Source of the DNA: Rhizobium album
GTDB taxonomy: Bacteria > Pseudomonadota > Alphaproteobacteria > Rhizobiales > Rhizobiaceae
Assembly (NCBI RefSeq): GCF_003122325.1
Contig: NZ_QFBC01000017.1
Coordinates: 1 to 64,000 of the forward strand
DNA length: 64,000 nucleotides
Direction of reading: 5' to 3'
The notes under the pieces were generated by a model, which made no database searches, was not told where the DNA came from, and saw only the letters and a program-made list of their open reading frames with translations. Both the position numbers and the translations under genes were made by a program. Shown piece by piece: positions 39,950-62,615 of this stretch (within the stretch, counting starts at the first letter, position 1; the number at the start of each line of letters is the position of its first letter).

Positions 39950-41545
39950 CTATCGCAGCGCTTCCACCACATCGCGCACCGTCGTCACTGCGGCGACGTT
40001 CTGCATGGCGTAGTTCACCGATGCCTTGTGCCACTCGGCGTTCATCGTCGAGCAGCCGTCTTCCGGCACGATCATGATGTAACCCTTGTCGGCGCCGGTG
40101 CGGGCCGTGTGTTCGATCGACATGTTCGTCCAGGCGCCGGTGACGATGACCATGTCCCGGCCGTAAGCCTTGAGCACCGTTTCGAGGCTGGTGCCCTCCC
40201 AGGCGCTCATGCGCATCTTTGCGACAACGATGTCGCCCGCCTGTTGCTCCAGTCCCGGCACAGGCAATGCGCCCCAGGTGCCGCGCACCAGGGCATTGGA
40301 ATCCACCACACCCTCGAACAGCGGCGCATTCAGCGTAAAACCCGGCGCCCCGGGCTCGACCAGGAACCAGACATGGATGACGGGTACGCCGGACCGGCGG
40401 CATTGGTCCGCGAGCCGGCGGATGTTTTCGATGGCATTCTGCTCGCGGCAATGCTGCGGCGAGCCGGAGGCGGCGAAGGCGCCTCCCTCCATCACCACAT
40501 CGTTCTGCATGTCCTGGATGATCAGCGCGCAACGCGAGGCATCGAGCTGGAACGTACCGTCCGAGCCTGAGGGGGAGCGCTGCGGTTCCGACGACCGCGC
40601 GCCGTGGGAAGAGACATCGGCGGAGGATTGGCCAGCGCGCATGAAAGGTTCCTTTCTCGGGCCGATCTTCGTCTCGACCGTGTAGACCGACGTCGTCGCG
40701 GTCATGTAGAGGGTGCGCCAGTCCGGGCCGCCCCAATGCAGGTTGGCAACCTCTTCCGGCACGACGAGTTTTCCGAGCAGCCGCCCGCCGGGGCTGTAAA
40801 CCCAGACGCCGCCTGGCCCCGTCACCCAGATATTGCCGGCCTCGTCGCATTTCATCCCGTCGGGAAGGCCGGGCTTGCTGCCATCCCGGATGCCGGATGC
40901 GAAGGTCCGCCCCTCGGAGAGAGAGCCGTCCGGCTTCACGTCGAAGACGCGGATGTTCGCCTGGTCCGTATCGTTGATGTAGAGCAGTTTTTCGTCCGGC
41001 GAGAAGCACAGGCCGTTCGGCTGCGAGAAGACATAGCGGCCGACGACCAGTTCCGGTTCGCGACCGAGCTGGCCGGGGCGGATACGGAAGACGCCCTGCC
41101 AGCCGAGATCGCGTGGCCTCTCGACGCCGAAGATCGGCATGCGGCCATACCAGGGATCGGTGAAATAGATCGAGCCGTCGCTATGGATGCAGACGTCGTT
41201 GGGACTGTTGAGCTCCTTGCCCTCGAAATGCGAGGCCAGCACCTGCCGCGCGCCGTCGCGGCGAATGGCGACGACCGAAGACGTGGCATGTTCGCAGACG
41301 ATCAGGTCGAGATCGCGCGTATAGGTCATGCCGTTGCCCTTGTTGGAGGGCCTCGCCACCTCGCGCACGCCATTGCGGTCGAGCCTGCGGCGCACGTCGC
41401 CCGGCATGTCGGAGAACAAAAGATACTGCTCGACCGGATGCCAGATCGGCCCTTCCGTGAAGGTAAAACCATTGCCCGCCATCCTCACCGGGGCATTCGG
41501 GTCGATCAGCCTGGGGAATTCCGGATCCAGCACCTCATGCGCCAT
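39950..41545 (-). CDS. SMP-30/gluconolactonase fused to isochorismatase-like hydrolase
   Basis: A 531-residue two-domain protein. Residues about 1-300 form an SMP-30-type six-bladed propeller with the metal residues in FTEGPIW, ELNSPNDVCIHSDG and PDGMKCDEAGNIW. A Ser-rich linker (about 305-335) leads to an isochorismatase-like domain (about 338-531). That domain keeps the Asp of IIQDMQNDVV and the Lys of VAKMRMSAWEGTSL, but the nucleophile Cys is replaced: TNMSIEHTAR has Ser476. A lactonase plus amidase-like fusion suggests two consecutive ring-opening or hydrolysis steps. It is the last gene of the 22-kb minus-strand locus, 3 bases after the amidohydrolase gene. Confidence 0.87.
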   Translation of the reverse strand: MAHEVLDPEFPRLIDPNAPVRMAGNGFTFTEGPIWHPVEQYLLFSDMPGDVRRRLDRNGVREVARPSNKGNGMTYTRDLDLIVCEHATSSVVAIRRDGARQVLASHFEGKELNSPNDVCIHSDGSIYFTDPWYGRMPIFGVERPRDLGWQGVFRIRPGQLGREPELVVGRYVFSQPNGLCFSPDEKLLYINDTDQANIRVFDVKPDGSLSEGRTFASGIRDGSKPGLPDGMKCDEAGNIWVTGPGGVWVYSPGGRLLGKLVVPEEVANLHWGGPDWRTLYMTATTSVYTVETKIGPRKEPFMRAGQSSADVSSHGARSSEPQRSPSGSDGTFQLDASRCALIIQDMQNDVVMEGGAFAASGSPQHCREQNAIENIRRLADQCRRSGVPVIHVWFLVEPGAPGFTLNAPLFEGVVDSNALVRGTWGALPVPGLEQQAGDIVVAKMRMSAWEGTSLETVLKAYGRDMVIVTGAWTNMSIEHTARTGADKGYIMIVPEDGCSTMNAEWHKASVNYAMQNVAAVTTVRDVVEALR

Positions 41546-41548
41546 GGT

Positions 41549-42487
41549 TCATGCTCCCGTTTTCTTGCCGAATTTCGGCCGTCCGGCGACCGATCCAGCC
41601 CTGTCCAACTGATAGACCTTCATCGCGGTGTCGTGGAAAATCGCCGTTCGCACCGCCTCATCGAGATCGCTTGCGGCGATCAGGAAGGAATCGACCAGCG
41701 GGCCGTAATCGGTCCAGATTTTTTCGATGGGGAAATTCGAGCCGAACAGGCAGCGGTCAGGACCAAAAATCTCCAGCGCCTCGTGCAGGATGCGGCTGAT
41801 ATGGCCGGTCTCGTTTTTGTGGATGAAAGTGCCGAAGGCCGAAAGCTTGGTCACCACGTTCGGCTGTCCGGCAAGGTGCTTCAGTTCCTGGCGCCAATAA
41901 TCGTAACCCGCAGGCGAAAGGTCTTCCGGCATGCCGGCATGCTGCAGGATGAAGGTCACTTTCGGGCAGGCGGCGGCAAGCTCGGCCGCGCCACGCATCT
42001 GCGACGCGAAGACCTGCAGGTCGAAACTCCAGCCATAGTCCGCCAACGCCGCAACATTGCGCATGACGTTCGGATCACGCGCCAGATTGGGGTCGGCGGC
42101 AAAACGGTAGAGTGGATTTTCGTGCCAATGGAGCTGGTGGCGGATGCCGCGCATCAGCGGATATTTCTTCAGCCGGTCGAGCGCCGGCCGGGCGTCCTCG
42201 ACGGTCATGTCGCAATAACCGACGATGCCGTGCGGCCAGCCGCTGCGGTCGGCCTCGCCCTGCACCCAGGCCACTTCGTCCTCGAAACGCTCCTTCGCCC
42301 AGTTCGCCTGCACATAGACGGATTTGACGATGTTCCGCCCGGAAATATCCTCGAGATATTCCTCGATCGGATAATCCCGGCGGATCGATTCATAGGGGCC
42401 GAAGATGCGCGGCTGCATGGCGCCCATCAGCCAGGGAAGGTCCTTGCGTCGCCAGATGTGATGGTGGGCGTCGATAATCTTCATCAT
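41549..42487 (-). CDS. Amidohydrolase-2 family protein
   Basis: A 312-residue TIM-barrel hydrolase of the amidohydrolase_2 (COG3618, L-fuconolactonase-like) type. The N-terminal metal motif is DAHHHIW, a later His lies in LQHAGMPEDLS, and the acid region is FGSNFPIEK. Relatives hydrolyse lactones or decarboxylate aromatic acids. It overlaps the coxE-like gene by 4 bases and is followed by the SMP-30 fusion, so it probably works on a lactone or cyclic product of the upstream molybdenum hydroxylase (inference). Confidence 0.88.
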   Translation of the reverse strand: MMKIIDAHHHIWRRKDLPWLMGAMQPRIFGPYESIRRDYPIEEYLEDISGRNIVKSVYVQANWAKERFEDEVAWVQGEADRSGWPHGIVGYCDMTVEDARPALDRLKKYPLMRGIRHQLHWHENPLYRFAADPNLARDPNVMRNVAALADYGWSFDLQVFASQMRGAAELAAACPKVTFILQHAGMPEDLSPAGYDYWRQELKHLAGQPNVVTKLSAFGTFIHKNETGHISRILHEALEIFGPDRCLFGSNFPIEKIWTDYGPLVDSFLIAASDLDEAVRTAIFHDTAMKVYQLDRAGSVAGRPKFGKKTGA

Positions 42488-43599
42488 GCTGCAAACCTCG
42501 CGATGTCAAGCAGTTCGCCGCAAAGCCGCTCCGTCGAAGCGCCGTTGCCGAGCCGGTCGATATGGGGAAGGATGGACGAAAGCGCCTGTGTCTGCGGCAC
42601 GTAATCCGCATCGCCGGCAAGCGGCGTCAGCCAGACGATGCGCCAGGCGCGGCGCGACAGCCGCTCGACGGCCTCGGTCATCGCCGTATGGTCGCCACGC
42701 TCCAGTCCATCGGAAAGAACGACCGTGAGCGCACCCCGGGCGAAACCGGCAAAACGCGGCACGGAAAGAAAGGCCGCGAGGGCATCGCCCAGCCGCGTGC
42801 CGCCGTCCCAGTCGGCAACCAGCGTTGCGGCGATGGCAAGCGCCTGGTCGCGATTGCGCAGCTTCAACGCCCGCGTTACCCGCGTCAGCCGCGTGCCGAG
42901 GGTAAAAACCTCGAAATGGTCGGAGACGGCGGCCAGTGTGTGGGCAAAACGCATGTAGGTGTCGGTGTGCTGCTTCATCGAGCCGGAAACGTCGATCAAC
43001 AGCAGGATGCGCCGCTGGCGCGTCTTGCGCGCCATTTTCGGCAGCCGCATCACCTCGCCGTCGCGCTTGACGGCATCGCGCAAAAGCTTGCGCATGTTCC
43101 AGCGATCGCCTGCCTTGGCGGCGGTACGGCGATAGGTCTGGCGGCGCGGCAGGCGTGACGGCGCCTGGCGGCGGAAGCGGCGCAGGATCTCGCTTTCGTC
43201 CATCTCGACGAATTGCCGCAGCGACAGAGCTTCGGCGCCGGTGGCCTCGTCGCCGGATTCGTTGATCTCGTCGGCTTCCGGCGGGTCCATCTCGCCGTCA
43301 CGCTCGTCATAGGCGCGCAGTTCTTCCTCCTCGTCGTCGGACGTACCGGCGGCGATCGACTGGCCGAGGAACAGGAGGCGGAACAGCGCGTCGAACTCCT
43401 CGCGGCGCTCCGGCGGCGGCGCCAGCGTCGCCAGCCCCGCCTTGTGGATGTCGCCGACGGTTTTGGGCCCGAGCAGGCCGACAGCCTGGATGAAGGTCTG
43501 GGTCTGTTCGGGCGAGACAAAAAAGCCGTTGCTGCGCAGGAGCGTCGAGAACTCGACGAACGGCCAGACGGCGCGCGGCAGTTCCTCGGCGCTCGTCAT
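42484..43599 (-). CDS. CoxE-like VWA-domain protein
   Basis: A 371-residue VWA protein of the CoxE family. The C-terminal half is a von Willebrand A domain with the MIDAS motif DVSGSMKQ, a later Thr in WDGGTRLGDAL and the Asp of LSDGLERGD. The acidic middle (EEEELRAYDERDGEMDPPE) is typical. With the MoxR-type ATPase encoded just upstream it matches CoxD-CoxE, which mature the active site of aerobic CO dehydrogenase and related molybdenum hydroxylases. The start ATG at 43599 overlaps the ATPase stop; a longer open frame reflects the overlapping gene. Confidence 0.9.
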   Translation of the reverse strand: MTSAEELPRAVWPFVEFSTLLRSNGFFVSPEQTQTFIQAVGLLGPKTVGDIHKAGLATLAPPPERREEFDALFRLLFLGQSIAAGTSDDEEEELRAYDERDGEMDPPEADEINESGDEATGAEALSLRQFVEMDESEILRRFRRQAPSRLPRRQTYRRTAAKAGDRWNMRKLLRDAVKRDGEVMRLPKMARKTRQRRILLLIDVSGSMKQHTDTYMRFAHTLAAVSDHFEVFTLGTRLTRVTRALKLRNRDQALAIAATLVADWDGGTRLGDALAAFLSVPRFAGFARGALTVVLSDGLERGDHTAMTEAVERLSRRAWRIVWLTPLAGDADYVPQTQALSSILPHIDRLGNGASTERLCGELLDIARFAA

Positions 43600-44477
43600 G
43601 CCGCCGCTCCCGAGATCAGCGCATCGATACGCGGCGCCACGAATTCCAGGTCGTCCTGGTCCTTCAGCGCCACGCCGATAGCGCGCTTGAAGGCAGTCGG
43701 CCAAGGAGACCCCTGCGAATGCAGCAGCGTCGCCGCCTCCGCCCACTCCACGGTTTCCGCCACGCCCGGCGGCTTTGCCAGCGGCTCCTGGCGGAGGCGG
43801 CCGACGGCGGCGACCACGGCATCCGCCGTCTCGCGCGCCACCGTGCTTGCCCGCATCATGACGATCTGCGCCTCGCGCATCGGGTCGGGATAACCGATCC
43901 AGTGATAGACGCAACGCCGCCGCAGGGCCTCGTGCAGTTCGCGGGTGCGGTTGGAGGTGAGGATGACGACCGGCGCCTCTTCAGCGCGAACCGTGCCACG
44001 CTCGGGGATGGAGATCTGGAAATCCGACAGAAATTCCAGCAGGAAGGCCTCGAACTCGTGGTCGGAACGGTCGATTTCGTCGATCAGCAGCACCGAATCC
44101 TTCGGATTGCGAAGGGCGTCGAGCATCGGCCGGGCAATGAGGAAATCGTCGCCGTAGATGTTGAGATAGGTGTCGCCGGCCTGCCGGATCGCCAGCATCT
44201 GGCGCGGGTAGTTCCATTCGTAGAGTGCCGCAGCGGCATCGATGCCTTCGTAACATTGCAGGCGGATCAGGTTGCGGCCAAGCACCGAGGCGATGGCTTT
44301 GGCTGCCTCCGTCTTGCCAACGCCGGGCGCGCCTTCGAGCAGCAGCGGCTTGCCGAGCGCCAGCGCGAGATACCCTGCCGTCGATAGTCCGTCGTCGGCC
44401 AGATATTGCGCGGCATCCAGCGCTGCCGCGAGCCGTGCGGGACTGTCGATGCCGACGATGGAGCGACGGACGGGCAT
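43596..44477 (-). CDS. MoxR-family AAA+ ATPase (CoxD-like)
   Basis: A 293-residue AAA+ ATPase: Walker A GAPGVGKTE (about residues 49-57), Walker B VLLIDEIDRSD, sensor TSNRTREL and the arginine region LRRRCVYHW. MoxR/CoxD chaperones work with VWA partners (CoxE) to insert or modify metal centres. Its end overlaps the CoxE-like gene by 4 bases. A 129-base gap with a palindromic repeat separates it from the molybdenum hydroxylase genes upstream in the same direction. Confidence 0.92.
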   Translation of the reverse strand: MPVRRSIVGIDSPARLAAALDAAQYLADDGLSTAGYLALALGKPLLLEGAPGVGKTEAAKAIASVLGRNLIRLQCYEGIDAAAALYEWNYPRQMLAIRQAGDTYLNIYGDDFLIARPMLDALRNPKDSVLLIDEIDRSDHEFEAFLLEFLSDFQISIPERGTVRAEEAPVVILTSNRTRELHEALRRRCVYHWIGYPDPMREAQIVMMRASTVARETADAVVAAVGRLRQEPLAKPPGVAETVEWAEAATLLHSQGSPWPTAFKRAIGVALKDQDDLEFVAPRIDALISGAAA

Positions 44478-44606: not shown

Positions 44607-45629
44607 TCACCATTTCGGCTGCGGCTGCGGCCCGCCGATGGCGGCAATCCCGCGCAAAACCTTCTCCGGCGTGATCGGCAACTCGTCGATACGCACGCCG
44701 ACGGCATTGAACACCGCGTTGGCGACGGCCGGCAGCACCGGATTGGCGCACATTTCTCCCGGACCCTTGCCGCCGAACGGACCGTCCGGCGCCGGGCGCT
44801 CCAGCACCGAGATGTGGTGCGGCGCGATATCCCCAGGACCCGGCATCAGGTACTCGTTGAAGTCCACCGGTCCGTGGATGCGGTCGGGGTAATAGGGTTC
44901 CGTCGTTTCCCAGAGAGCGTGGCTCATTCCCATCCAGGCGCCGCCGATCAGCTGCTGTTCGACAAGACGCGGATTGAGCGCCCGGCCGACTTCGTAGGCG
45001 CTGTTCATCTCGATGACGGTCACCTCGCCGGTCTCGTCATCGACGTCGATGTCGACGACCATCGCCGCATGGGCAAAGCAGGTCACGGGTGTCATCTCGC
45101 CGGTATCCGGATCGACATCCGAAAGCGGCACCAGGAAGATGCCGCGACCGGACACCGTGCGCCCCTGCTTGAATTGCGCCGCCCCGCAGGCCGCCGCGGT
45201 GGTGATCGATTTCGACGGCGCGCCCTTGACGTGGATGTTGCCCTTGCCGTCCGTCACCAGGTCGTCGGGGTTGACTTCCAGCTCCTGCGCCGCCGCCTCC
45301 ATCATCACCGAACGGGCTTCCCTGGCGGCGGCGATGACGGCGTTGCCGACGCGGTGCGTGCCGCGCGAGGCAAACGAGCCCATGCAATGCGGGCCGGTGT
45401 CGGAATCGGCGGTGTCGACATAGACGTCCTCGACGGGAATGCCGAGTGTTTCCGCCGCGATCTGCCGCGTCACCGATTTCATGCCCTGGCCGAGGTCGAT
45501 GGAGGACAAGGCGACCATGAACTTGCCGTCCGGATTGGAATGCACCAGCGCCTGGCTCGGATCGCCGCCGAGATTCATGCCGATCGGATAGTTGATGGAG
45601 GCAAAGCCGCGTCCGCGATGAAGGGTCAT
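44607..45629 (-). CDS. Molybdenum hydroxylase large subunit, C-terminal half
   Basis: A 340-residue protein equal to the C-terminal molybdopterin-binding region of xanthine-dehydrogenase-family large subunits. It carries SSIDLGQGMKSVTRQIAAE, GSFASRGTHRVGNA and the essential Glu in FGGKGPGEMCANP near the C-terminus. It begins one base after the stop of the gene for the N-terminal half, so the large subunit is encoded as two polypeptides that must assemble around the Mo cofactor. Split large subunits are known, for example in nicotinate dehydrogenase. The C-terminal sequence is complete, so this is not a truncated fragment. Confidence 0.88.
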   Translation of the reverse strand: MTLHRGRGFASINYPIGMNLGGDPSQALVHSNPDGKFMVALSSIDLGQGMKSVTRQIAAETLGIPVEDVYVDTADSDTGPHCMGSFASRGTHRVGNAVIAAAREARSVMMEAAAQELEVNPDDLVTDGKGNIHVKGAPSKSITTAAACGAAQFKQGRTVSGRGIFLVPLSDVDPDTGEMTPVTCFAHAAMVVDIDVDDETGEVTVIEMNSAYEVGRALNPRLVEQQLIGGAWMGMSHALWETTEPYYPDRIHGPVDFNEYLMPGPGDIAPHHISVLERPAPDGPFGGKGPGEMCANPVLPAVANAVFNAVGVRIDELPITPEKVLRGIAAIGGPQPQPKW

Positions 45630-45630
45630 G

Positions 45631-47331
45631 TCAACGTCTCCTGAGGCCTGAGATCGACGAGAAACGGTTTACCGCCGGCCGCTGTTCAACTGGCGTGGCC
45701 GGCTGCGACGGAGTGGGGTTATAGGTCGAACTCGGCGTTGGTGCGTTTTCTGCCGGCCGTCGTTCGGGCGCACCGGGCGCCGGCGAAGAACTCGCAGCCG
45801 GCGTATAAGCGGGCACGCTCGGGAAAGCAGGGGTGGAGGGAAAGGTCGGTGTCGAAGGCACATAGGGCTGCGGCTGGTAACCGAAGCTCGAAGTCCCGCT
45901 GCCGCGCACCATCCCCTTCTGGTCGATCGCGGTATGGGCCGGGATCAGCGCCCGCTCGCCACCGCCGCCCTTCAGCGATGACATCGCCTTGTATTCGCTG
46001 CCGATCTTCCACTTGGCCTTTTCGGCGACGACCTGGCAGCATTCGATCAGCGCCGTATTCTTCGCCAGCCGCCGGTGCGCCTTCATGTCGCCGTCGCGAT
46101 AGGAATTGAGGATGCGCAACTCGATCGGGTTCATGCCGATCTTCGACGCCACCTTGTCCATATGCGCTTCGATGGAAAAATCGACGCCGGTGATGCCGAA
46201 ACCGCGCATGGCGGTTGCCGGCGTGCGGTTGGTGAAGACGCAGTAGACGTCGGACGAGACGTTGGGGATCGTATAGGGACCGGGAAGATGGCCGGTGCCC
46301 TTGATGATCGCGTAGCTCGATAGGCGGGTATAGGCGCCGGAATCGAAATAGCCGATGAATTTCCGGGCGATGATGCGCCCATCGTTCATCACGCCGTCGG
46401 TGATGTACCAGCGCTCCGCGCCGCGCGGCGCGCCGACCTGCATCTCTTCCTCGCGGTCCCAAGCATAGCGCACCGGCTTGCCGGTCAGCATGCAGCCGAG
46501 GATGGCCATCGGCTCGTGGATCGAATCCACCTTGCCGCCGAAACCGCCACCCACCGTGCCGCCGATGAAATGCAGCCGGTTCGAAGACACCTTCAGCATC
46601 TTCGCGGCGGTGCCGAGCGAGAAGAACAGCGCCTGCGTCGAGGTATAGACGACAAAACGGTTGTTGGTCTCGGGTGCTGCGATGGCGCCGCAGGTTTCCG
46701 TCGGCGCCTGCTCGATCGGCGACATCTGGTAGCGACCCTCGACCACATGGTCGGCCTGGCGGAGTGCGGCCTCGACATCGCCGAAACGCAGCTTCTGGTG
46801 ATCGTATTTTTCGTGGTAGAGAAAGGTATTGGTGGGGTAGGTGGGGTTGACCGAAGGCGCACCCGGCTTGATCGCCTCCTCGACATCAAGCACATGCGGC
46901 AGCACTTCGTAATCGACGCGGATCTTGGCGATGGCGTCGAAGCAGGCCCGCTCGGTTTCCGCCACGACGGCAACCACCGGTTCGCCGACATAACAGACCT
47001 TCTTGTCCGCCAGCATCGGCTCGTCGTCGAGGCCGAAATCCATCAGGCTCAAGAGCGTGTTGAGGTTGAGCGGCACGTCGCGGGCACGGATCACCTTCTT
47101 GACGCCCGGCATGCGTTCCGCTTCCGACGTATCGACCGAGCGGATGCGGGCGTGGTGATGCGGCGAGCGCAGGCACTTGAGATGCAACAGGCCATCGAAC
47201 AGGTGATCGTCGAAATAGGGCGAGCGGCCGGTGACGTGGCCGAGCATGTCCTGCCGCTGCGTCGGCTTGCCGATCTCGTTCAGGTTGTCGTCGCGTTCGT
47301 CGGCGAAATATTCCTTGCGAAATTCAATCAT
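45631..47331 (-). CDS. Molybdenum hydroxylase large subunit, N-terminal half with Pro-rich tail
   Basis: A 566-residue protein with the N-terminal Ald_Xan_dh domain (GHVTGRSPYFDDHLFDGL onward) and the first cofactor domain: SPIEQAPTETCGAIA, GGTVGGGFGGKVDS and TPATAMRGFG (Arg376-Gly-Phe-Gly). The active-site loop is of the xanthine-dehydrogenase/hydroxylase type, not the AYRCSFR loop of CO dehydrogenase. Residues about 473-566 are a low-complexity Pro/Ser/Thr tail (PYVPSTPTFPSTP and similar) ending SSISGLRRR. Family members normally continue into the C-terminal half, here a separate gene. The ATG at 47331 is clear; the longer open frame overlaps the FeS gene. Confidence 0.88.
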   Translation of the reverse strand: MIEFRKEYFADERDDNLNEIGKPTQRQDMLGHVTGRSPYFDDHLFDGLLHLKCLRSPHHHARIRSVDTSEAERMPGVKKVIRARDVPLNLNTLLSLMDFGLDDEPMLADKKVCYVGEPVVAVVAETERACFDAIAKIRVDYEVLPHVLDVEEAIKPGAPSVNPTYPTNTFLYHEKYDHQKLRFGDVEAALRQADHVVEGRYQMSPIEQAPTETCGAIAAPETNNRFVVYTSTQALFFSLGTAAKMLKVSSNRLHFIGGTVGGGFGGKVDSIHEPMAILGCMLTGKPVRYAWDREEEMQVGAPRGAERWYITDGVMNDGRIIARKFIGYFDSGAYTRLSSYAIIKGTGHLPGPYTIPNVSSDVYCVFTNRTPATAMRGFGITGVDFSIEAHMDKVASKIGMNPIELRILNSYRDGDMKAHRRLAKNTALIECCQVVAEKAKWKIGSEYKAMSSLKGGGGERALIPAHTAIDQKGMVRGSGTSSFGYQPQPYVPSTPTFPSTPAFPSVPAYTPAASSSPAPGAPERRPAENAPTPSSTYNPTPSQPATPVEQRPAVNRFSSISGLRRR

Positions 47332-47339: not shown

Positions 47340-47822
47340 TCACCCGTATCTGCGGCCACCGCTCTGGGCGGCAGCGAGCACGGCATTGATGATGGGTTCG
47401 TAACCGGTGCAACGGCAGATATTGCCGGAGATCGCCTCGACCACCTCCTCGCGGGACGGTGAGGGGTTGCGGTCGAGCAAGGCCTTGGCGGCCATCAGCA
47501 TGCCCGGCGTGCAATAACCGCACTGGGCGGCGAAATTGTCCATGAACGCATGCTGCAATGCGTGCAATTGCGGCCCGTGCGCCAGGCCCGCGGTCGTTTC
47601 GACCGACTGGCCCTCGACGGTTTCGGCAAGCGTCAGACAGGAAAGCCGCGGCTCGCCGTTGACCAGCACCGTACAGGTGCCGCAAGTGCCCTGCCCGCAG
47701 CCGTATTTCGGCGAGAGATCGCCGACGCCGCGGCGCAGCACGTCGAGCAGGTTGGAGCCCTCCTCCGCGAAGATCGCCTGGCCGCTGCCGTTCAGTTGGA
47801 ATTGGATGGGTTTCTTGGCCAT
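47340..47822 (-). CDS. Molybdenum hydroxylase 2Fe-2S subunit
   Basis: A 160-residue small subunit (CoxS type). The plant-type cluster is bound by YGCGQGTCGTCTVL plus the Cys of RLSCLT, and the second cluster by QCGYCTPGML and NICRCTGYEPI. It passes electrons from the Mo centre to the FAD subunit. The gene lies 4 bases after the FAD-subunit gene and 8 bases before the large-subunit genes. All eight expected Cys ligands are present, so the electron chain looks intact. Confidence 0.95.
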   Translation of the reverse strand: MAKKPIQFQLNGSGQAIFAEEGSNLLDVLRRGVGDLSPKYGCGQGTCGTCTVLVNGEPRLSCLTLAETVEGQSVETTAGLAHGPQLHALQHAFMDNFAAQCGYCTPGMLMAAKALLDRNPSPSREEVVEAISGNICRCTGYEPIINAVLAAAQSGGRRYG

Positions 47823-48655: not shown

Positions 48656-49111
48656 TTACGCCGTCGCGGCCGGTGCGAGCCCCATATGAGCGCGCACGGC
48701 CTCGAAACCCGCCTGATAGATCTGTTCAGACACCATGTCCTTCAGTCGCTGTTCTTCGCCCGCCGGCGTGTCGAAGCGCGATTCCCACTCCCAGAAGGTG
48801 AGATCGCCGTCCGTCACCGGCGTCAGCCGGACATGCGCCACGTAGTTCAAAAGCGGCACCGGCGTATCGAGCAGGCAATAGGTGAAGGCCATGTCGGCAT
48901 CCGACAGCGTCAAAAGCTGTTCGCGCAGTTCGGAGCCGTCGACCAGGTGGAAGCGGCGCACGCAGCCCACCTTGTCGGAACTCTGGCCGCGCTCGATATG
49001 GCTGTCGGCCACCGCCGGGTGCCAGCGGTCGTGGCCGTTGAAATCGCGCAGGACCTCCCAGACGGCTTCGACCGGCGCTTCCATGATGGTGCTTTTGACG
49101 ATCTTGACCAC
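48656..49111 (-). CDS. SRPBCC-family protein 1 (CoxG-like)
   Basis: A 151-residue START/SRPBCC-fold protein. The N-terminal strand (IMEAPVEAVWEVLRDFNGHDRWHPAV) and the C-terminal long helix fit polyketide-cyclase/CoxG-like members. It is similar to the next protein (shared DKVGCVRRFHL / DKIGCVRDFHL segment), so the pair came from duplication. In CO-oxidising bacteria CoxG recruits CO dehydrogenase to the membrane, so a similar anchoring or substrate-carrier role is possible. That is inference. Confidence 0.85.
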   Translation of the reverse strand: MVKIVKSTIMEAPVEAVWEVLRDFNGHDRWHPAVADSHIERGQSSDKVGCVRRFHLVDGSELREQLLTLSDADMAFTYCLLDTPVPLLNYVAHVRLTPVTDGDLTFWEWESRFDTPAGEEQRLKDMVSEQIYQAGFEAVRAHMGLAPAATA

Positions 49112-55781: not shown

Positions 55782-56559
55782 GACCGCCTCCGAGGTAGAG
55801 TTCCTGCACTTCCGGATCGCTTTCGATCTCGCTCGGCCGGCCTTCCTTGAAGATGCGGCCGTTGTGCATCATCGTCACGCTTTCCGAGACGCGCAGCGCG
55901 ACGTCCATGTCGTGCTCGATGATGATGTAGCCGATATGGGCCGGCAGGTTCGTGAGGATTTCGATCAGCTCGCGCCGCTCGGTCGGCGACAGGCCGGCGG
56001 CCGGCTCGTCGAAGAGGATGAAGCGCGGGGCGCCGGCGAGCGCCAGGGCGATTTCCAGCTGCCGCTGCTGGCCGTAGGACAGTTCGGCAACCTTGGTGTC
56101 GCGCACGTCGATCAGGTGGACGGCGGTGGCGAGCTGTTCGGCGGAATGCATCAGCGCCTCGTTGCGGCGCGGCCGGATCAGCGAGAAGCGACCGCGCGAT
56201 ACGCCGCGGCAGGCGAGATAGATGTTGTCGAGGACGCTGAGGCCCGTGAACAGGAGCGAGATCTGGTAGGTGCGGCGCAGGCCGCGGCGGATGCGCTCAT
56301 AAGCCGGAAATTCGGTGACATCCTCACCGAACAGGCGGATGGTGCCCAAGGTCGGCAAGAAATCGCCGGTGATGCAGTTGAACAGCGTCGTCTTGCCGGC
56401 GCCGTTGGAGCCGAGCACCGCGCGGCGCTCTCCGGGACGGACGGTCAGCGAGACGTCGGTCAGGGCAGCCAGCGCCCCGAACATGCGGGTGACGCCGCGC
56501 AGTTCGAGCGCATTGGCGGTGCCGGCGGCGGACAGTCTTTGTGCAACACTGACCGCCAT
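55774..56559 (-). CDS. LIV-type ABC transporter ATP-binding protein (LivG-like)
   Basis: A 261-residue ABC ATPase: Walker A GSNGAGKTT (about residues 51-59), Q-loop RTYQISLLF, signature-like LSYGQQRQLEIA, Walker B FILFDEPAAGL and His of IIEHDMD. It fits the LivG/BraF type that pairs with a LivF ATPase, here the fusion protein. The ATG at 56559 overlaps the LivM stop (TGATG), and the 3' end overlaps the fusion gene by 8 bases. Confidence 0.9.
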   Translation of the reverse strand: MAVSVAQRLSAAGTANALELRGVTRMFGALAALTDVSLTVRPGERRAVLGSNGAGKTTLFNCITGDFLPTLGTIRLFGEDVTEFPAYERIRRGLRRTYQISLLFTGLSVLDNIYLACRGVSRGRFSLIRPRRNEALMHSAEQLATAVHLIDVRDTKVAELSYGQQRQLEIALALAGAPRFILFDEPAAGLSPTERRELIEILTNLPAHIGYIIIEHDMDVALRVSESVTMMHNGRIFKEGRPSEIESDPEVQELYLGGGHG

Positions 56560-57644
56560 CAGAGCCTCCTGTCCCGCTCGGCCGTCAATGACGAAGCGGC
56601 GCGCATGCGGTCGCGGAAGCGCGGCCAGAGACCGAGGATGCCGTCGGGCGACCAGAAGACGATGGCGAGGAAGGCAAGGCCGACGAGCAGCTGGAACCGC
56701 TCGCCGGGAATGCCGACCAGCACCAGCACGTCGAGCGCGAAGGTGCGCAGGACGACGAAGATCAGCGCGCCGATGAACGGCCCGATCGGGTGGCGTATGC
56801 CGCCGATGACGGCGATGACCAGGATATCGATGGCCGGGCCGACAGCCACCGTGCCGGGCGAGATCTGGGCGTTGAGCCAGACGAGCAGCACGCCGGCGAC
56901 GGCCGCGATGAAGCTGGCGAAAGCGTAAGCGGCGATGCGGTGCGCCGTGACGTTGAAGCCGAGGGCGGCCATACGGCGCGGATTGTCGCGCACGCCCTGC
57001 AGCGCCAGGCCGAACGGGGTGCGGGCGACGTAGATGACGACGAAATAGGCAAGCGTCGCGAAGAACAGCGTCAGGTAATAGATCGGCACCGGCTGGCGCC
57101 AGTCCACGCCGAAGAGCTGCGGCGGCAGCACCTGGTTGAAACCGTTGAAGCCGTTGAAGACACCGTAGTTCTGGCGGACGAAATAGAAGAAGGCGGTCGC
57201 AATGGCGAGCGTGATCATGATCGTGTAGATGCCGGCCGTTCGTACCGCCAGCGCTCCCGTGATCGTGCCGAACAGCGTGGCGATGGCGAGCGCTACCGGC
57301 ACGGTCAGCCACCAGGGCCAGCCGAGGCTGATCTGCACCACGCCGCTATGGCCGAAGACGGCAACCATATAGGCCGCAAGACCGGCGACGGACATCTGCA
57401 CCAGGCTGACCATGCCGCCGTAGCCGCCCAGGAACATCAGGCTCAGCGCCACCATGCCGAGGATGAAAGCCCAGCCGAAGATCTGGAAGAGCACGAAGTT
57501 GCTGGCGACCACCGGCATCAGCAGCAGAATGAAACCGAGGACCCAGTAGACCCAGGGAATATTGGCCGGGCCGTAGAGTTCCGCGCGTTTATGCGGCTTG
57601 CCGGAGGCATCGACGCGGCTGGTGAGTTGATCCGTCGACGCCAT
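56559..57644 (-). CDS. LIV-type ABC transporter permease (LivM-like)
   Basis: A 361-residue inner-membrane permease with about nine hydrophobic segments. LGGYGGMVSLVQMSVAGLAAY is typical of LivM, and the ATPase-contact loop includes FGLALQGVRDNPRRMAALGFN. The N-terminal 30 residues are polar. The start at 57644 overlaps the LivH stop by one base. It works with the LivH, LivG and LivF-type proteins; substrates of this family range from amino acids to urea, amides and aromatic acids. Confidence 0.92.
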   Translation of the reverse strand: MASTDQLTSRVDASGKPHKRAELYGPANIPWVYWVLGFILLLMPVVASNFVLFQIFGWAFILGMVALSLMFLGGYGGMVSLVQMSVAGLAAYMVAVFGHSGVVQISLGWPWWLTVPVALAIATLFGTITGALAVRTAGIYTIMITLAIATAFFYFVRQNYGVFNGFNGFNQVLPPQLFGVDWRQPVPIYYLTLFFATLAYFVVIYVARTPFGLALQGVRDNPRRMAALGFNVTAHRIAAYAFASFIAAVAGVLLVWLNAQISPGTVAVGPAIDILVIAVIGGIRHPIGPFIGALIFVVLRTFALDVLVLVGIPGERFQLLVGLAFLAIVFWSPDGILGLWPRFRDRMRAASSLTAERDRRL

Positions 57645-58657
57645 CAGCGGGTCCTCCCGAACAGGCCCTGCGGCCGGAAGGCGAGCACGACCACCATGAT
57701 CAGGAAGGTCAGCACCACGGCATAGGTGGGAAAATAGACGGAGCCGAACTGCTCCGCGAGGCCGATGATCAGCGCGCCGACCGCGGCCCCGGGAATGGAG
57801 CCCATGCCGCCGACGATGACGACCACCAGCGAGGCCAGCAGGAAGCGGGTATCTTCTCCCGGCGCCATCGACTGGAATGTGCCGCCGACGACGCCGGCGA
57901 TGCCGGCAAGACCTGCACCGAAGGCGAAGACCAGCACGAAGACGCGCTGGATGCGCACGCCGGTCGCCGACAGCATGTCGCGATCGTCGACGCCGGCGCG
58001 GATCAGCATGCCGACGCGCGTCCGGTTCAACGCCAGCCACATCAGCACGCCAACGACGACGGCGCCGAGGAAGATGACGAGGCGAACGATCGGATAGGTG
58101 AGGTAGACGGCTTCGCCGTTGCTTTTCAGCGCCGTGACGAGCGGCAGTTTCACCGGGCCGGACAGCCACTCGGGCGCCAGGATCTGGTAAAAATTGCCGC
58201 CCCAGATCCACAGCATCAGGTCGGCGAGCACGATGGAAATGCCGATCGTCACCAGCGTCTGGCGCAGGTCCTCGCCTTCCATGCGCCGGAACACCACCAC
58301 CTGCAGTACGATGCCGAGCAGTCCGACGACGATGAAGGCGACGACGAAGCTGAGCAGCCACCAGCCGGTGGTCACCGCCACGCCGTAGCCGATGTAGCCG
58401 CCGAGCATGTAAAGGGAGCCGTGCGCCAGGTTGACGTTCTTCATCAGGCCGAAGATCAGCGTGAAGCCCGAAGCAACGAGAAAATAAAGCGCACCCAGCG
58501 TGATGCCGTTGAAGAAGGCGTTGAGGAACACTTTCTTCTTGCCGAACACATCCTCGAAACCGGGTGGCCAGGCGGCAAAGATCGCCCAGACGAAAAAGGC
58601 CAGCACGATGAAAATGATCAGCGACCAGATCGGTTGCCGGTTGATGAACGACCTCAT
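57644..58657 (-). CDS. LIV-type ABC transporter permease (LivH-like)
   Basis: A 337-residue inner-membrane permease. NAFFNGITLGALYFLVASGF and MKNVNLAHGSLYMLGGYIG are LivH signatures, with the contact loop in RVGMLIRAGVDDRDMLSATG. The ATG at 58657 has GGAG 8 bases before it. An ATG at 58738 is in frame, but its GGGAGG abuts the start codon directly, so I prefer the shorter form. It heads the run of transporter genes below a 315-base promoter region. Confidence 0.9.
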   Translation of the reverse strand: MRSFINRQPIWSLIIFIVLAFFVWAIFAAWPPGFEDVFGKKKVFLNAFFNGITLGALYFLVASGFTLIFGLMKNVNLAHGSLYMLGGYIGYGVAVTTGWWLLSFVVAFIVVGLLGIVLQVVVFRRMEGEDLRQTLVTIGISIVLADLMLWIWGGNFYQILAPEWLSGPVKLPLVTALKSNGEAVYLTYPIVRLVIFLGAVVVGVLMWLALNRTRVGMLIRAGVDDRDMLSATGVRIQRVFVLVFAFGAGLAGIAGVVGGTFQSMAPGEDTRFLLASLVVVIVGGMGSIPGAAVGALIIGLAEQFGSVYFPTYAVVLTFLIMVVVLAFRPQGLFGRTR

Positions 58658-58972
58658 GGCGCGCTCCACGGCCGGCCGGCCGGCAAGGGGGCGCAGACGG
58701 ATGCGCGCAGTTGGCCCATCGCAAAGGTCAAGTTGCATCCTCCCAGTGCAGGTCGACTTTGTTCGTAACGAGGAGATTAAGACTGCGGCCGGAAAATACC
58801 GTACCTTTCAGTCTCATCCTTTCCCATCCAATCGGCAAAAGCGCCGCGGATGGTTTTGCGTCGGCCAAGTGTCTGCAAACGCACATCTTCTCGGCCCCAA
58901 CCTGCAAAATCTCGGCCGGTGGCGCGGGCGAACGAGAGACGAATCGACTTCGCCCGGTGCAGCCTTCAGGCC
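58658..58972. other. Promoter region of the LIV transporter / Mo hydroxylase locus
   Basis: This 315-base gap lies between the AraC-gene stop and the LivH start on the minus strand. It should hold the promoter of the long downstream operon and any AraC sites. A short in-frame extension of LivH reaches 58738. I see no gene and no clear symmetrical operator, as expected for AraC-type direct repeats. Confidence 0.4.
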
Positions 58973-59821
58973 TCAGCCGACATAGGCAACGCGTCGATAA
59001 TCCGTCGGGGGAATGCCGACGTTGGCGGTGAAGAAACGGGTGAAGCTGGCCTGCGAGGCGAAGCCGAGATCGAGGCCGATGGTGGTGATCGGCGTCTTCG
59101 TCCGCGTCAGCTTGTCGATGGCGTTTTCCATCCTGAGCGTGTTCAGATAGACATTCGGCGTGAGCCCGGCATGTTCGCGGAAAAGCTTGTAGAAATGCGG
59201 CCGCGAGAGGCCGGAATCACGGGCGATCGTGTCCAACGCCAGTTCGTCGCCGATACGCTCGTTCATCAGCCGGATCGAGTTGCGGACACGGTAGTCGCGC
59301 ACGCCGCTCCATTGCTGATTGAACGGCGTGCTGTCGTCGCCGAACGGCGAGGCATCCGGCGACCACTGCCATGTCTGGTCGTAACATTCACGCGTCAGTT
59401 CGTAGAGATAACCGTCGAAAAGGTCGGATTGCTCATCCTCCAGCAGCAGCGTCGAGACCAGTTGCACCAGACGGTGAATCTGCGGCGTGACGATGATCCG
59501 GTCGCGGCCGAACCTGAGCGCGCTCTGGGCGCTGCGCCCGACCTCCAGAAACCATATCGGCTTGATGTAGAGAACGAGAAACAGCGTGCCGCCGTCCGCG
59601 TCGCCCGGCATGAAACTATGGGCCTGCCACGGGTTCACGGCGCTCGCCGTGCCCCCGTCGACACGACAGTCCATTCCCGAGGCGGTGATCACGCTGGGAG
59701 CCCCCTGAACGAAGAACGCCAGATGTCCTTCGCGATGGGCATGCGTCACCATCGGGCGGTTGAGCTTGTAAAGCGTCGCACGCCCGAACAGCCCGTGATA
59801 TACGGCCAAGGCTGTACTCAT
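58973..59821 (-). CDS. AraC-family transcriptional regulator
   Basis: A 282-residue regulator with an N-terminal cupin-like AraC_binding domain (VTHAHREGHLAFFVQGAPSV) and a C-terminal double HTH (about 180-280: LALDTIARDSGLSRPHFYKLF and DLGFASQASFTRFF). Such proteins usually activate adjacent catabolic genes when they bind substrate. It lies just upstream of the LIV transporter and Mo hydroxylase genes on the same strand, so it is the prime candidate regulator. GGGAGGGAGG precedes the ATG. Confidence 0.92.
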   Translation of the reverse strand: MSTALAVYHGLFGRATLYKLNRPMVTHAHREGHLAFFVQGAPSVITASGMDCRVDGGTASAVNPWQAHSFMPGDADGGTLFLVLYIKPIWFLEVGRSAQSALRFGRDRIIVTPQIHRLVQLVSTLLLEDEQSDLFDGYLYELTRECYDQTWQWSPDASPFGDDSTPFNQQWSGVRDYRVRNSIRLMNERIGDELALDTIARDSGLSRPHFYKLFREHAGLTPNVYLNTLRMENAIDKLTRTKTPITTIGLDLGFASQASFTRFFTANVGIPPTDYRRVAYVG

Positions 59822-60037: not shown

Positions 60038-61171
60038 CTAAAGTGCCGCGCTCATGAGCTGCAGATAATCGCTGGCCGTCGCCCGCCGCGGATTGGTGCC
60101 GTTGGTATGATCCTTTTCCGCCTGCGGTGCAGCCTTTTCGATGGCGGCCCGATCCACCCCCATGGCGGCGAGTTTTTTAGGTAAGCCGATGCGGCAGCTC
60201 AGCCGCGACAGCGCCTCCGACAGATCGTCGCCGCGCGGAAGATCGATGGCGTCCTTGAGCGCCGTGTATCGATGTGAAACGGCGGGCGCATTGAACTCCA
60301 GCATATGCGGCAACAGAACGGCATTCAGCGTACCGTGATGCAGATGGTAGCCGGCGAGGCCGCCAAGCGCATGGCTCATGGCATGCACGCCGCCGAGCCC
60401 CTTCTGGAAGGCGAGGGCACCGTTCATCGCCGCCGCCATCATTTCACGGCGGGCCTGCAGGTCAGAACCCTTCTGGACGGCGCGCTCGATGTTGGCGGCC
60501 GCACGGCGCAGGCCGTCGAGGGCGATGCCGTCTGCCGGCGGATTGTAGGCGGTGGCGATATAGGTTTCGACGCAATGCGTCAGCGCATCCATGCCCGTTC
60601 CGGCCGTTAGCAGCGGCGGCAGGGTCAGCGTCAGGGTCGGATCGCAGATGGCGACCTTGGGGATGAGGTATGGGCTCAGCAGGCCAAGCTTGCGGCCGTC
60701 GTCAAGGATGATCAGCGCGCCGCGGCCGACTTCCGAGCCGGTACCTGCCGTCGTCGGAATGGCGATGATGGGCGGAAGGACGTCGCGGATGCGTGCCGTG
60801 CCGCCCTCTACCGCCGCATAACTTTGCAGCGCGCCATCGTGGCTGACCAGGATACCGGCAGCCTTGGCAAGATCGATAGACGAACCGCCGCCAAACCCGA
60901 TCAGGCAGTCGCAGTCGTTGCCTTTGAAAATCTCCGCGGCCTGCCGGCAGGCGGCTTCCGTCGGGTTCGAGGGCGTTTCGGAAAAAACCACCGGTTCGGT
61001 GCGGCTGTCGAAGGAATCCAGCAGGCGGTCGAGCAGGCCGGCGCCAAGCACGCCGCGATCGGTAACAACCAGCGGCCGGCGGATGCCAAGCGCCGCAGTT
61101 TCCGCCAGCAGCGCCTCTTCCAGCACGTCGTCGGCGAAATGGATCCTGGTAAGATAGTTGATCAGCGACAT
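60038..61171 (-). CDS. Iron-containing alcohol dehydrogenase
   Basis: A 377-residue group III (Fe-type) alcohol dehydrogenase. Cofactor motifs GFGGGSSIDLAKA and IPTTAGTGSEVG, then metal ligands in GMDALTHCVE, GGVHAMSHALGG and LHHGTLNAVLLPH, are all present. The frame is open upstream to 61306, but MSLINYLTRIHF at 61171 is the family start. It lies between the LIV binding-protein gene and the AraC gene on the same strand, so it probably oxidises an alcohol in the same pathway. Relatives include maleylacetate reductases, which remain an alternative. Confidence 0.9.
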   Translation of the reverse strand: MSLINYLTRIHFADDVLEEALLAETAALGIRRPLVVTDRGVLGAGLLDRLLDSFDSRTEPVVFSETPSNPTEAACRQAAEIFKGNDCDCLIGFGGGSSIDLAKAAGILVSHDGALQSYAAVEGGTARIRDVLPPIIAIPTTAGTGSEVGRGALIILDDGRKLGLLSPYLIPKVAICDPTLTLTLPPLLTAGTGMDALTHCVETYIATAYNPPADGIALDGLRRAAANIERAVQKGSDLQARREMMAAAMNGALAFQKGLGGVHAMSHALGGLAGYHLHHGTLNAVLLPHMLEFNAPAVSHRYTALKDAIDLPRGDDLSEALSRLSCRIGLPKKLAAMGVDRAAIEKAAPQAEKDHTNGTNPRRATASDYLQLMSAAL

Positions 61172-61331
61172 GGGCCCAACCCTTGGCGAACGTGCCCGCG
61201 CCCGGTCGGTCGCGGCAAGCCGGGGCACCCTCATGGCGCAACGGCTCACCGGCCGGCAGCCCGGCCCGATCCAGGGACAGGCGCCGCCCGTCCCCGATTG
61301 AGACAAGGCGTCGCGGGGGATGGAAACAGGA

Positions 61332-61352
61332 GCCGGGGCAGAAGGCCCCGGC
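61332..61352 (-). terminator. Hairpin after the LIV binding-protein gene
   Basis: GCCGGGGC (61332-61339) and GCCCCGGC (61345-61352) form a perfect 8-base stem with a 5-base loop, 16 bases beyond the binding-protein stop. It may cap that highly expressed mRNA and reduce read-through into the alcohol dehydrogenase gene. The rest of the gap (61172-61331) holds nothing recognisable. Confidence 0.55.
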
Positions 61353-61367
61353 CGGCGCTTCAGGCTG

Positions 61368-62615
61368 TTACTGGTACTTCTTGCATTCCGGCACGTCGCG
61401 CGACGGCAGGCCGATCGATGCGAAGACGTCCGCCGGCAGGCCGAGCGTCTGGTTGACGTCCGGAACGGTCTTGACCAGCTTGTTGATCAGGTTGCCATCA
61501 GGGCCTTCGGCCACTTCGCTGATGAAGTTGGTGCCGATCGCCTGGCGGTTCTGATCGAGCTTGATGTGGCCGTTCGGCGCATCGAGTTCCATCTTGGCCA
61601 GCGCCTCGCGGAAGGCCTTCTGGTCGCCGGAAACGTCACCCTTCACCTGCTGCAGCGCCTTCAGCGTCGCCATGGTGGAGTTGTAGTAACCGGTCGCAAA
61701 CAGCGACGGCGACGGGAAACGCTTGTCGGCCGGGAAGGCGTCCTGATAGGCCTTGACGAACTTGGTCCAGGCCGGATCGTCCGAGGTATCCGCCTGCGGG
61801 CCGCCCGACGGCGTGCCGATCAGCGCCTTCTTGGCATCGCCCTTGGCGTTGAGAACGGTGCCGTCGACCATGATCGTGCCGCCGATCAGGTGGGCTTCGC
61901 CACCGGCCTGCTGGTACTGGTTCAGGAAGTTGACGGCATCGCCGCCGCCGAGGCCGACATAGATGGCGTCGACGTCATCCGGCAGCGAGGCGATGATCGA
62001 GGCGAAGTCCTTGGTGCCGAGCGGCACCCACTGGCGTTCGGTGATCTCGCCGCCCGCCTGGCAGAAACCGAGCGCGAAGCCGAGGAAGTTCGTGTAACCG
62101 AAAGAATAGTCTTCGGCGACCGATGCCACTTTCTTCCAGCCCTTGTCGTTGTAGACATATTCGCCAAGGCCGGCACCCCACTGCGCGCCGTCCATGTTGA
62201 AACGGAAGAAATTTTCCGCCGGATCGACATAGGTTGCTTCCTGGGCGCCCGACAGACCGTTGATGATGGTGATGTTCGGGTTCTGCTTGGCGAAGTCGCG
62301 CAGCGCAATGCCTTCCGAACCGGAAAGCGGACCGACGATCACGGTGACGCCATCCTGCTCGACAAGCTTGCGGGCGGCGCGCACAGCGCTATCCGGCGTC
62401 GTGTCGGTCGAAGCGATGATATGGTTGATCTTCTTGCCGTCGATCTCGCCGATTTCCTTCAGAGCGACCTCAACGCCGCGAAGCGCATCTTCGCCGAGCA
62501 CCGTATAGGTGCCTTCCAGCGTGGCAAGCACGCCGATCTTGATATCCTCGGCCAGCGCCGAGCCCGCTGAAAGCATGGCGGCGGCAGCCACCGTGGTCAA
62601 CAACCACTTCTTCAT
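61368..62615 (-). CDS. LIV-type ABC transporter substrate-binding protein
   Basis: A 415-residue periplasmic binding protein of the Peripla_BP_6 (LivK) type. A signal peptide (about residues 1-23, ending ALAE) precedes DIKIGVLATLEGTYTVLGED. VIVGPLSGSEGIAL and SVAEDYSFGYTNFLGF are typical of members that bind amides, amino acids or aromatic acids. GGGAGGAACG precedes the ATG at 62615. It probably delivers substrate to the LivH/M/G/F-type importer encoded 3-7 kb downstream on the same strand. Confidence 0.93.
   Translation of the reverse strand: MKKWLLTTVAAAAMLSAGSALAEDIKIGVLATLEGTYTVLGEDALRGVEVALKEIGEIDGKKINHIIASTDTTPDSAVRAARKLVEQDGVTVIVGPLSGSEGIALRDFAKQNPNITIINGLSGAQEATYVDPAENFFRFNMDGAQWGAGLGEYVYNDKGWKKVASVAEDYSFGYTNFLGFALGFCQAGGEITERQWVPLGTKDFASIIASLPDDVDAIYVGLGGGDAVNFLNQYQQAGGEAHLIGGTIMVDGTVLNAKGDAKKALIGTPSGGPQADTSDDPAWTKFVKAYQDAFPADKRFPSPSLFATGYYNSTMATLKALQQVKGDVSGDQKAFREALAKMELDAPNGHIKLDQNRQAIGTNFISEVAEGPDGNLINKLVKTVPDVNQTLGLPADVFASIGLPSRDVPECKKYQ

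Follow-up and report, generated by a model that had tools for sequence, protein, structure and literature searches.

The 64,000-nt window analysed here (positions 1–64,000 of contig NZ_QFBC01000017.1, Rhizobium album assembly GCF_003122325.1) carries a one-strand locus that combines a LIV-type importer, a giant flotillin and a split molybdenum (Mo) hydroxylase. Pfam and NCBIfam scans of minus-strand open reading frames (ORFs) led to 19 modelled genes between 39950 and 62630 (Table 1). From the LivK end the order is LivK, an iron-containing alcohol dehydrogenase (FeADH), AraC, LivH, LivM, LivG, LivF::UPF0261, PEPh, flotillin, SRP1, SRP2, the FAD and FeS subunits, MoL, MoM, CoxD, CoxE, amidohydrolase_2 and SMP-30::isochorismatase, where PEPh is a PEP-hydrolase-like TIM barrel, SRP1 and SRP2 are SRPBCC proteins and MoL and MoM are the two halves of the Mo subunit. 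A preliminary description had counted eighteen genes. The single-strand run stands and every family named is present on the minus strand, but the number rises to 19; UPF0261, listed as a gene of its own beside the TIM barrel, is the C-terminal half of a LivF fusion; and of the "two hydrolytic enzymes", one joins SMP-30/gluconolactonase to an isochorismatase-like domain. The tight packing that had been described holds from LivH to MoM (spacing −8 to +49 bp) and from CoxD to the end of the run (−4 to +3 bp) but breaks at LivK/FeADH (133 bp), FeADH/AraC (216 bp), AraC/LivH (234 bp) and MoM/CoxD (129 bp), so that the layout alone is no proof of one single transcript.

Table 1. Genes modelled at the locus, with window coordinates and the matches on which each call rests.
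Gene product	Position	Strand	Basis
LivK-type periplasmic binding protein, 420 aa	61368..62630	−	Peripla_BP_6, E 1.6e-57
FeADH, 398 aa from chosen ATG	60038..61234	−	NCBIfam NF058672, 530.9 bits
AraC-family regulator	58973..59821	−	HTH_18
LivH-type permease	57644..58738	−	BPD_transp_2
LivM-type permease, 361 aa	56559..57644	−	BPD_transp_2 in enclosing ORF; UrtC/LivM matches
LivG-type ABC ATPase	55774..56559	−	ABC_tran in enclosing ORF; UrtD/LivG matches
LivF-type ABC ATPase::UPF0261 (Tm-1 N-terminal-like), 739 aa	53562..55781	−	ABC_tran + UPF0261 + UPF0261_C
PEPh, UPF0261 partner	52728..53558	−	PF09370, E 3e-132
Giant flotillin, 1036 aa	49568..52678	−	Band_7 + Flot
SRPBCC protein 1 (SRP1)	49119..49559	−	Polyketide_cyc2
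SRPBCC protein 2 (SRP2)	48656..49111	−	Polyketide_cyc2
Mo hydroxylase FAD subunit	47827..48639	−	FAD_binding_5 + CO_deh_flav_C
Mo hydroxylase 2x[2Fe-2S] subunit, 160 aa, 8 Cys	47340..47822	−	4HBCR-gamma and XdhC models, below cut-offs; Cys positions
MoL: hammerhead + MoCoBD_1, Pro/Ala-rich tail ending RFSSISGLRRR	45631..47331	−	Pfam on longer ORF
MoM: MoCoBD_2 half of Mo subunit	44607..45629	−	Pfam
CoxD/MadB-type AAA+ ATPase	43596..44477	−	AAA_5; NF047784 268.7 bits, below cut-off 475
CoxE/MadC-type VWA protein	42484..43599	−	VWA_CoxE, E 1.3e-40 on longer ORF; DVSGS motif
Amidohydrolase_2, lactonase type	41549..42487	−	PF04909; L-fucono-1,5-lactonase model 115.2 bits, below cut-off 400
SMP-30/gluconolactonase::isochorismatase-like	39950..41545	−	Pfam; Ser at usual Cys position

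The genes of this locus recur together. A search with the flotillin protein covered 199 genomes of the same order and gave a match in 58; the top 30 (own genome included, 565 bits and up) all belong to the system. SRPBCC and Mo-hydroxylase genes were seen after the flotillin in 29 of these, and in the thirtieth (G024) the 5.9-kb contig ends before the Mo genes, with PEPh and LivF::UPF0261 on the flotillin's other side. A scan of named genomes, using an alignment of MoM from the order loci as the query, gave 362 relatives, of which the best 80 were kept. Among these, counting only loci with a long enough contig, MoM is accompanied by MoL (72/72), FeS (70/70), FAD (69/69), SRP2 (67/68), SRP1 (64/65), flotillin (59/59), UPF0261 (57/58), PEPh (56/58), CoxD (78/78), CoxE (74/74), the amidohydrolase (69/71), SMP-30 (65/66) and the isochorismatase-like domain (64/65); LivF falls at the limit of the flank retrieved and could be seen in 52 of the 80. 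Hosts include Bradyrhizobium, Shinella, Mesorhizobium, Hoeflea, Roseomonas, Elioraea, Jannaschia, Acuticoccus, metagenome-assembled genomes (MAGs) of Granulosicoccus, and others. The shared gene order recurs in loci from different orders, with AraC at the corresponding place in most loci of this long form that have enough contig, and the system is conserved across many soil and marine bacteria. The idea of one functional unit, put forward in the preliminary description together with a check on the co-conservation of flotillin, UPF0261, TIM barrel and Mo hydroxylase, is supported by these counts, since the homologues of the system genes are not mostly unlinked. Chance juxtaposition on one strand can be dismissed, given the common order across orders and the flotillin beside the Mo hydroxylase in every assessable named locus.

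MoM of two Granulosicoccus MAG loci is 86–87% identical to that of the window, closer than MoM of Bradyrhizobium (about 82–83%), which suggests transfer as a unit, subject to the usual doubt over MAG binning. Long-form genes also occur in a record labelled Oceanobacillus (L107), an assembly that is probably misnamed or contaminated. An EamA-like gene, judged by eye from the L048 sequence, lies between MoL and MoM in L040, L047, L048, L099 and L116. A further arrangement, with one SRPBCC protein and a 539-aa flotillin, is found in genome G062.

The flotillin consists of a hydrophobic N-terminal helix, an SPFH domain, a 747-aa proline-free stretch with 11-residue repeats and a Flot domain. The ten best offsets in a self-comparison of the coil (55, 44, 110, 88, 99, 11, 33, 77, 22 and 66) are all multiples of 11, and the gene contains a tandem DNA repeat with a period of 165 bp. 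Repeats of eleven residues are a usual mark of right-handed coiled coils; an AlphaFold2 (AF2) model of low confidence (pLDDT 60.5, pTM 0.25) places helices at residues 205–408, 425–592 and 614–856. The N-terminal helix and the SPFH and Flot domains are shared with FloT/YqiK-type flotillins, whereas the length (860–1190 aa, median 968, in 85 long-form loci), the 11-residue-repeat coil and the fixed catabolic operon set the locus protein apart; unlike in the FloT/YqiK type, no NfeD gene was found by Pfam among the 19 genes. In a maximum-likelihood tree of 40 SPFH regions, all 20 long-form flotillins, nine of ten from a short form of the locus (562–857 aa, 8 loci) and that of a third form group in one clade (100/99), the third-form protein nested among the long forms. 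Two other flotillins of the same genome, on contigs C61 and C45 (L059, L060), fall outside this clade and were rejected as system members. Six further long flotillins (L061 and L169, L170, L171, L172 and L173; 36–42% identity) were also set aside, as the system genes are not beside them: their neighbours give no more than generic ABC or alpha/beta-hydrolase matches at 27–36%, and the Mo hydroxylase at L172 is unrelated to that of the system (25–39%).

The LIV/HAAT importer set is complete, with a Peripla_BP_6 binding protein, two BPD_transp_2 permeases and two ABC ATPases, one of which is fused to UPF0261. This fusion is one open frame in 83 of the 84 loci, of both forms and with some genomes counted twice, that hold both domains; the sole unfused case lies on an Azospirillum plasmid (L064). 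In 13 aligned proteins from both forms the linker has a short RW-centred motif, mostly P(N/T)RW. The best PDB match of UPF0261 is Tm-1 (3wry, 314.3 bits), with the UPF0261 protein 9mpy at 194.2 bits, and that of PEPh is 2p10 (431.4 bits). The plant fusion of the UPF0261/TIM-barrel pair is the Tm-1 virus-resistance protein. UPF0261 and the TIM barrel are likewise adjacent in the locus, but here UPF0261 is joined to LivF, whereas in the plant protein it is joined to the TIM barrel. Co-evolution of the bacterial pair has been reported (PMC5028733).

Several loci elsewhere bear on this pair. The Azospirillum argentinense plasmid encodes a 608-aa protein (L064:11812–13638) in which a PEP-hydrolase-like domain is fused to a sigma-54 activator and a Fis-type helix-turn-helix (HTH), an arrangement that suggests a capacity of this TIM barrel for ligand sensing. 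At the same locus an unsplit Mo hydroxylase lies together with LIV transport and UPF0261/PEPh genes. A Thermomicrobium roseum plasmid (L146:13875–31084) has, all on one strand, LIV genes with unfused UPF0261 and PEPh and, further along, FAD, FAH, a PEP-utilising enzyme and a Mo subunit of the xanthine-dehydrogenase type that is not split. No flotillin is annotated in the stretches seen of either locus. Thermomicrobium lies outside the Proteobacteria. With these two loci, the link between the Tm-1 pair and Mo hydroxylases is broader than this system. A distant second UPF0261 (28–29%) occurs in the window's own genome (L179, contig C5) and in G150 (L178), flanked in both genomes by aldehyde dehydrogenase and FAH matches.

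The Mo subunit is divided between MoCoBD_1 and MoCoBD_2 at the same point as in nicotinate dehydrogenase NDHLMSF of Eubacterium barkeri (3HRD), whose L and M chains are the best PDB matches of MoL (3hrd_A, 195.7 bits) and MoM (3hrd_B, 164.9 bits). Marks of the xanthine dehydrogenase (XDH) superfamily are present, namely eight FeS cysteines and, in a GEMC motif of MoM, E292, which we take to be the catalytic Glu. MoL E212 and R376 align with a Glu and an Arg of NdhL, are invariant in 14 loci and presumably correspond to Glu802 and Arg880 of xanthine dehydrogenase. Nicotinate dehydrogenase presumably also has separate FAD and FeS subunits, like the locus enzyme, and we know of no tie between it and a flotillin or importer. 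With coxMSLDEFG, the aerobic CO dehydrogenase cluster of Oligotropha, the locus shares FAD and FeS subunits, CoxD and CoxE; it differs in its split Mo subunit, in having no CoxF-like gene among the 19, and in the added flotillin and importer. Nor does the enzyme qualify as a form I CO dehydrogenase: the gene is split and MoL 371–382 reads PATAMRGFGITG, with AMRGFG in place of AYxCSFR, which we assume to be the active-site loop of CoxL in that form.

A difference from nicotinate dehydrogenase lies at the C-terminus of MoL. The NdhL chain stops at 425 aa, where a tail begins in MoL that comprises, in 14 aligned loci, a poorly alignable Pro/Ala-rich stretch and then an alignable tip, RF-SS-x-x-G-x-RRR. 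Across 99 complete MoL C-termini (some genomes were fetched twice, as G-handle genomes overlap named loci such as L022 and L074), the tail after MoCoBD_1 spans 91–208 aa; RRR stands at the end of 97, and RFx(2-6)GxRRR fits 93. The other six are variants that keep RRR (L022, L074, L120 and L139), one RKR end (L118) and one broken frame (L078). Three further loci (L192, L193 and L197) all carry the tail. A looser tip pattern matched 102 of 14485 open segments of at least 80 codons from the window and the loci then fetched: 96 have the strict tip, another two belong to MoL (L022 and L074), and the remaining four are probably frames open by chance. By comparison, the tail is absent from all six split relatives examined, from Salinigranum (an archaeon), Sinorhizobium sp. 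BG8, Nonomuraea and three same-class loci in two genomes; these proteins end within about a dozen residues of a conserved MSS/MTS point, where tails begin elsewhere. No flotillin match occurs in the stretches seen around the six, with L194 and L195 cut just upstream of or inside FAD, and none was found in the G743, G829, Salinigranum and Sinorhizobium records by a search without a positive control whose query matches the window's genome. In our reading the tail is a flexible tether whose tip is a putative address or docking peptide. The tip merely resembles what we take to be encapsulin-type cargo peptides, and no encapsulin or microcompartment shell family was detected among the 19 proteins with Pfam or NCBIfam.

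A sister form of the locus helps to separate its parts. This short form comprises LIV genes, LivF::UPF0261, mostly PEPh, the flotillin, SRP1 and SRP2, and no Mo hydroxylase was detected in its loci. Its members are the next seven flotillin genomes (385–408 bits; G092, G050, G131, G105, G087, G120, whose contig is cut inside UPF0261, and G085), two genomes from a phylum sample (G305 and G212) and one Variovorax plasmid; amidohydrolase_1, alpha/beta-hydrolase and FAH genes adjoin most of those with enough flank. A quinone-reductase match directly follows SRP2 in ten of ten short-form loci, and in all eight that were read SRP2 runs in frame into the NADPH:quinone reductase (frames of 501–622 aa), as confirmed by Pfam in Variovorax. 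The third form (L157) has LIV genes, a LivF fusion with a weak UPF0261_C match, the flotillin, two SRPBCC proteins, an MBL lactonase and an aldehyde dehydrogenase. Split Mo hydroxylases accompanied by CoxD/CoxE occur on their own as well, flotillin being absent nearby (L181 and L182). The data fit a long form that is a mobile, co-inherited system built from two pre-existing modules. The first would consist of the LIV importer with LivF::UPF0261, PEPh, SRPBCC proteins and the giant flotillin, a set that in the short form goes with quinone reductase. The second would consist of the nicotinate-dehydrogenase-type split Mo hydroxylase, CoxD/CoxE and lactonase-type hydrolases, its hydroxylase, CoxD/CoxE and amidohydrolase also being seen alone. 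Where both are joined, MoL carries the tail.

LivK and the remaining enzymes bear on the substrate. Against PDB chains, LivK scores 142.5 bits with 4zpj, 92.1 with 4ey3, 85.9 with 4evq and 45.1 with the leucine-binding protein 2lbp; 4ey3 and 4evq are, we believe, aromatic-acid-binding proteins of Rhodopseudomonas. These scores, with the two residues in common with nicotinate dehydrogenase, are compatible with a cyclic or aromatic substrate but do not prove one. The window FeADH passes the cut-off of the 4-hydroxybutyrate dehydrogenase model NF058672 (530.9 versus 500 bits), but in other long-form loci FeADH is 29–69% identical to it or not found, and that of Yoonia scores merely 85.7 bits against the same cut-off; no system-wide substrate follows from an enzyme so divergent. 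Yoonia FAH and the amidohydrolase of the window resemble enzymes of an L-rhamnonate/L-fuconate pathway, but this reading was likewise set aside, as both score below their cut-offs (412 of 500 bits for FAH). Some loci add aldehyde dehydrogenase and FAH/SDR genes. The SMP-30::isochorismatase fusion is one frame in 65 of 66 other loci, and Ser replaces the usual nucleophile, Cys, in 66 of 66, so the isochorismatase-like domain is possibly a serine hydrolase or has changed chemistry. A cluster of MBL proteins lies next to the amidohydrolase or SMP-30, with members in 78 loci (some genomes twice); in the window's genome a 70% homologue is on another contig. These proteins have weak AiiA and 4-pyridoxolactonase matches, far below cut-offs.

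The AF2 model of SRP1 (pLDDT 94.4) has a Bet v1/START-like fold, and its nearest Foldseek neighbours include 7tmu, 3cnw, 3f08 and 2le1, then PYR/PYL hormone receptors. CoxG is presumably also an SRPBCC protein, but an assignment of the twin SRPBCC proteins to CoxG is not supported, given these SRP1 neighbours and a Pfam match to Polyketide_cyc2 rather than to any CoxG model. CoxG itself is thought to bring CO dehydrogenase to the membrane, with electrons passing to quinone (PMC4240915). At the edges of the locus and within it, a DUF1612/HTH_13 protein (62762–63859) is encoded directly upstream of LivK, and a palindromic element, CCCCTTCTCCCCG..GGGGAGAAGG, lies at 44529–44555 in the MoM/CoxD gap; it is the single site in the window at up to 3 mismatches, with 0 in 100 shuffles.

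What is observed is which genes are present and in what order, how they are fused and co-conserved, and that the tail goes with flotillin; from this we propose a tethered, flotillin-scaffolded complex for import and oxidation, probably of a cyclic or aromatic compound, and put the probability of this reading at roughly one half; scaffold, docking, substrate flow and chemistry are its conjectural parts. The importer would take up a small cyclic or aromatic acid, on which UPF0261, carried on LivF, and the TIM barrel would work with ATP at the cytoplasmic face. The SRPBCC proteins may hold a hydrophobic substrate or intermediate and hand it to the redox enzyme. The flotillin would form an elongated coiled-coil scaffold on the membrane surrounding the importer, and the flexible MoL tail, through its RF(SSxx)GxRRR tip, would tether the Mo hydroxylase to this assembly. 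Ring opening after hydroxylation could be left to the amidohydrolase, the MBL lactonase (on the other contig here) and SMP-30::isochorismatase. The organised membrane site envisaged in the preliminary description thus gains indirect support, from LivF::UPF0261, SRP2::quinone reductase, the MoL tail and the 11-residue-repeat coil.

HflK–HflC, another SPFH complex, is reported to form a cage of 12 heterodimers (PMC12005517), and by analogy the locus flotillin may form a cage or palisade. A bolder version, which we hold only tentatively and consider doubtful, is that the flotillin builds a catabolic compartment at the membrane, caging or fencing in an importer whose ATPase bears the first enzyme. 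Redox enzymes would be targeted to it by the C-terminal RF..GxRRR peptide of MoL or, for quinone reductase, by fusion to an SRPBCC adaptor, and enzymes could be swapped as modules, like metabolosome cargo but in a structure open to the membrane.

Several observations weigh against the tethered complex or limit the linkage. The scaffolding role of flotillins is disputed in other bacteria (PMC8656257). UPF0261_C (PF23189) occurs at 92 places in 69 of the 199 order genomes, and by hand count only 36 of these have a flotillin match at a distance of up to about 4 kb; 48 of the other 56 are frames of 377–508 aa, too short to include a fused LivF. The tie to flotillin holds for UPF0261 fused to LivF and not for the UPF0261 family as a whole. 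PEPh is the least constant core member, being undetected in long-form L066 and L095, short-form L052, L054 and L154 and the third form. In genome G100 (L175, L048) the locus is split exactly between PEPh and flotillin; the halves lie 172 kb apart and both are kept, so adjacency of the importer and flotillin/Mo halves is not strictly needed. This split is also a natural test of which parts need co-transcription. The Variovorax short-form flotillin lies outside the SPFH clade, and the set of tail-free relatives is small, with two of its six loci on contigs cut near the FAD gene. Finally, a matching of MoL tail length to flotillin length was not borne out over 22 clusters (rho 0.20, p 0.38); the 72 rows left of 82 after removal of identical MoM, which are not independent, give rho 0.23 (p 0.049).

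The last result is also what would be expected of an ordinary catabolic operon, in which the enzymes work in solution, the flotillin only tunes the membrane or guards it against a membrane-active substrate, and the MoL tail binds the membrane or nothing specific. Every enzyme family at the locus is a usual catabolic one, and the split hydroxylase with CoxD/CoxE does without a nearby flotillin in L181 and L182. This is the strongest competitor, to which we would assign something near one chance in three. Against it, flotillin and tail are kept as strictly as the catalytic genes, and an extension of no use would not be expected to keep its tip almost invariant while the linker changes fast. In a milder version, the basic tip could serve as an electrostatic membrane anchor.

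Alternatively, CoxD (AAA+) and CoxE (VWA) might use the tail as a handle in cofactor maturation. AAA+ proteins often grip disordered tails, and both genes are present in every assessable long-form locus among the best 80 relatives. Sulfuration of the CO dehydrogenase cofactor is reported to need CoxD (PMC4240915). Sinorhizobium sp. BG8 and Nonomuraea, however, have no tail, although split MoL, CoxD, CoxE and amidohydrolase follow one another there as they do in the locus; the tail therefore tracks flotillin and not maturation, and we consider such a handle improbable. It is similarly hard to credit that the locus serves to sense or inactivate a signal, be it a lactone or hormone-like, and not to feed on a carbon source. 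The widespread MBL proteins resembling acyl-homoserine-lactone lactonases, the lactonase-type amidohydrolase, SMP-30 and the PYR/PYL receptors among the SRP1 neighbours all point that way, but the matches to lactonase models fall far short of the cut-offs, Bet v1-type folds accept many ligands, and the dedicated importer and FeADH, with aldehyde dehydrogenase and FAH/SDR at some loci, resemble full catabolism.

Among the papers listed by a literature search confined to open-licence PMC papers, no title or opening of an abstract describes the locus. If the tethered, flotillin-scaffolded complex is real, bacterial flotillins would gain a dedicated, genetically fixed client set, and the disputed question of flotillin clients would become directly testable by the deletion of one peptide. 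The placing of the UPF0261/TIM-barrel pair beside an importer and a redox enzyme would also offer a route to the chemistry of that pair.

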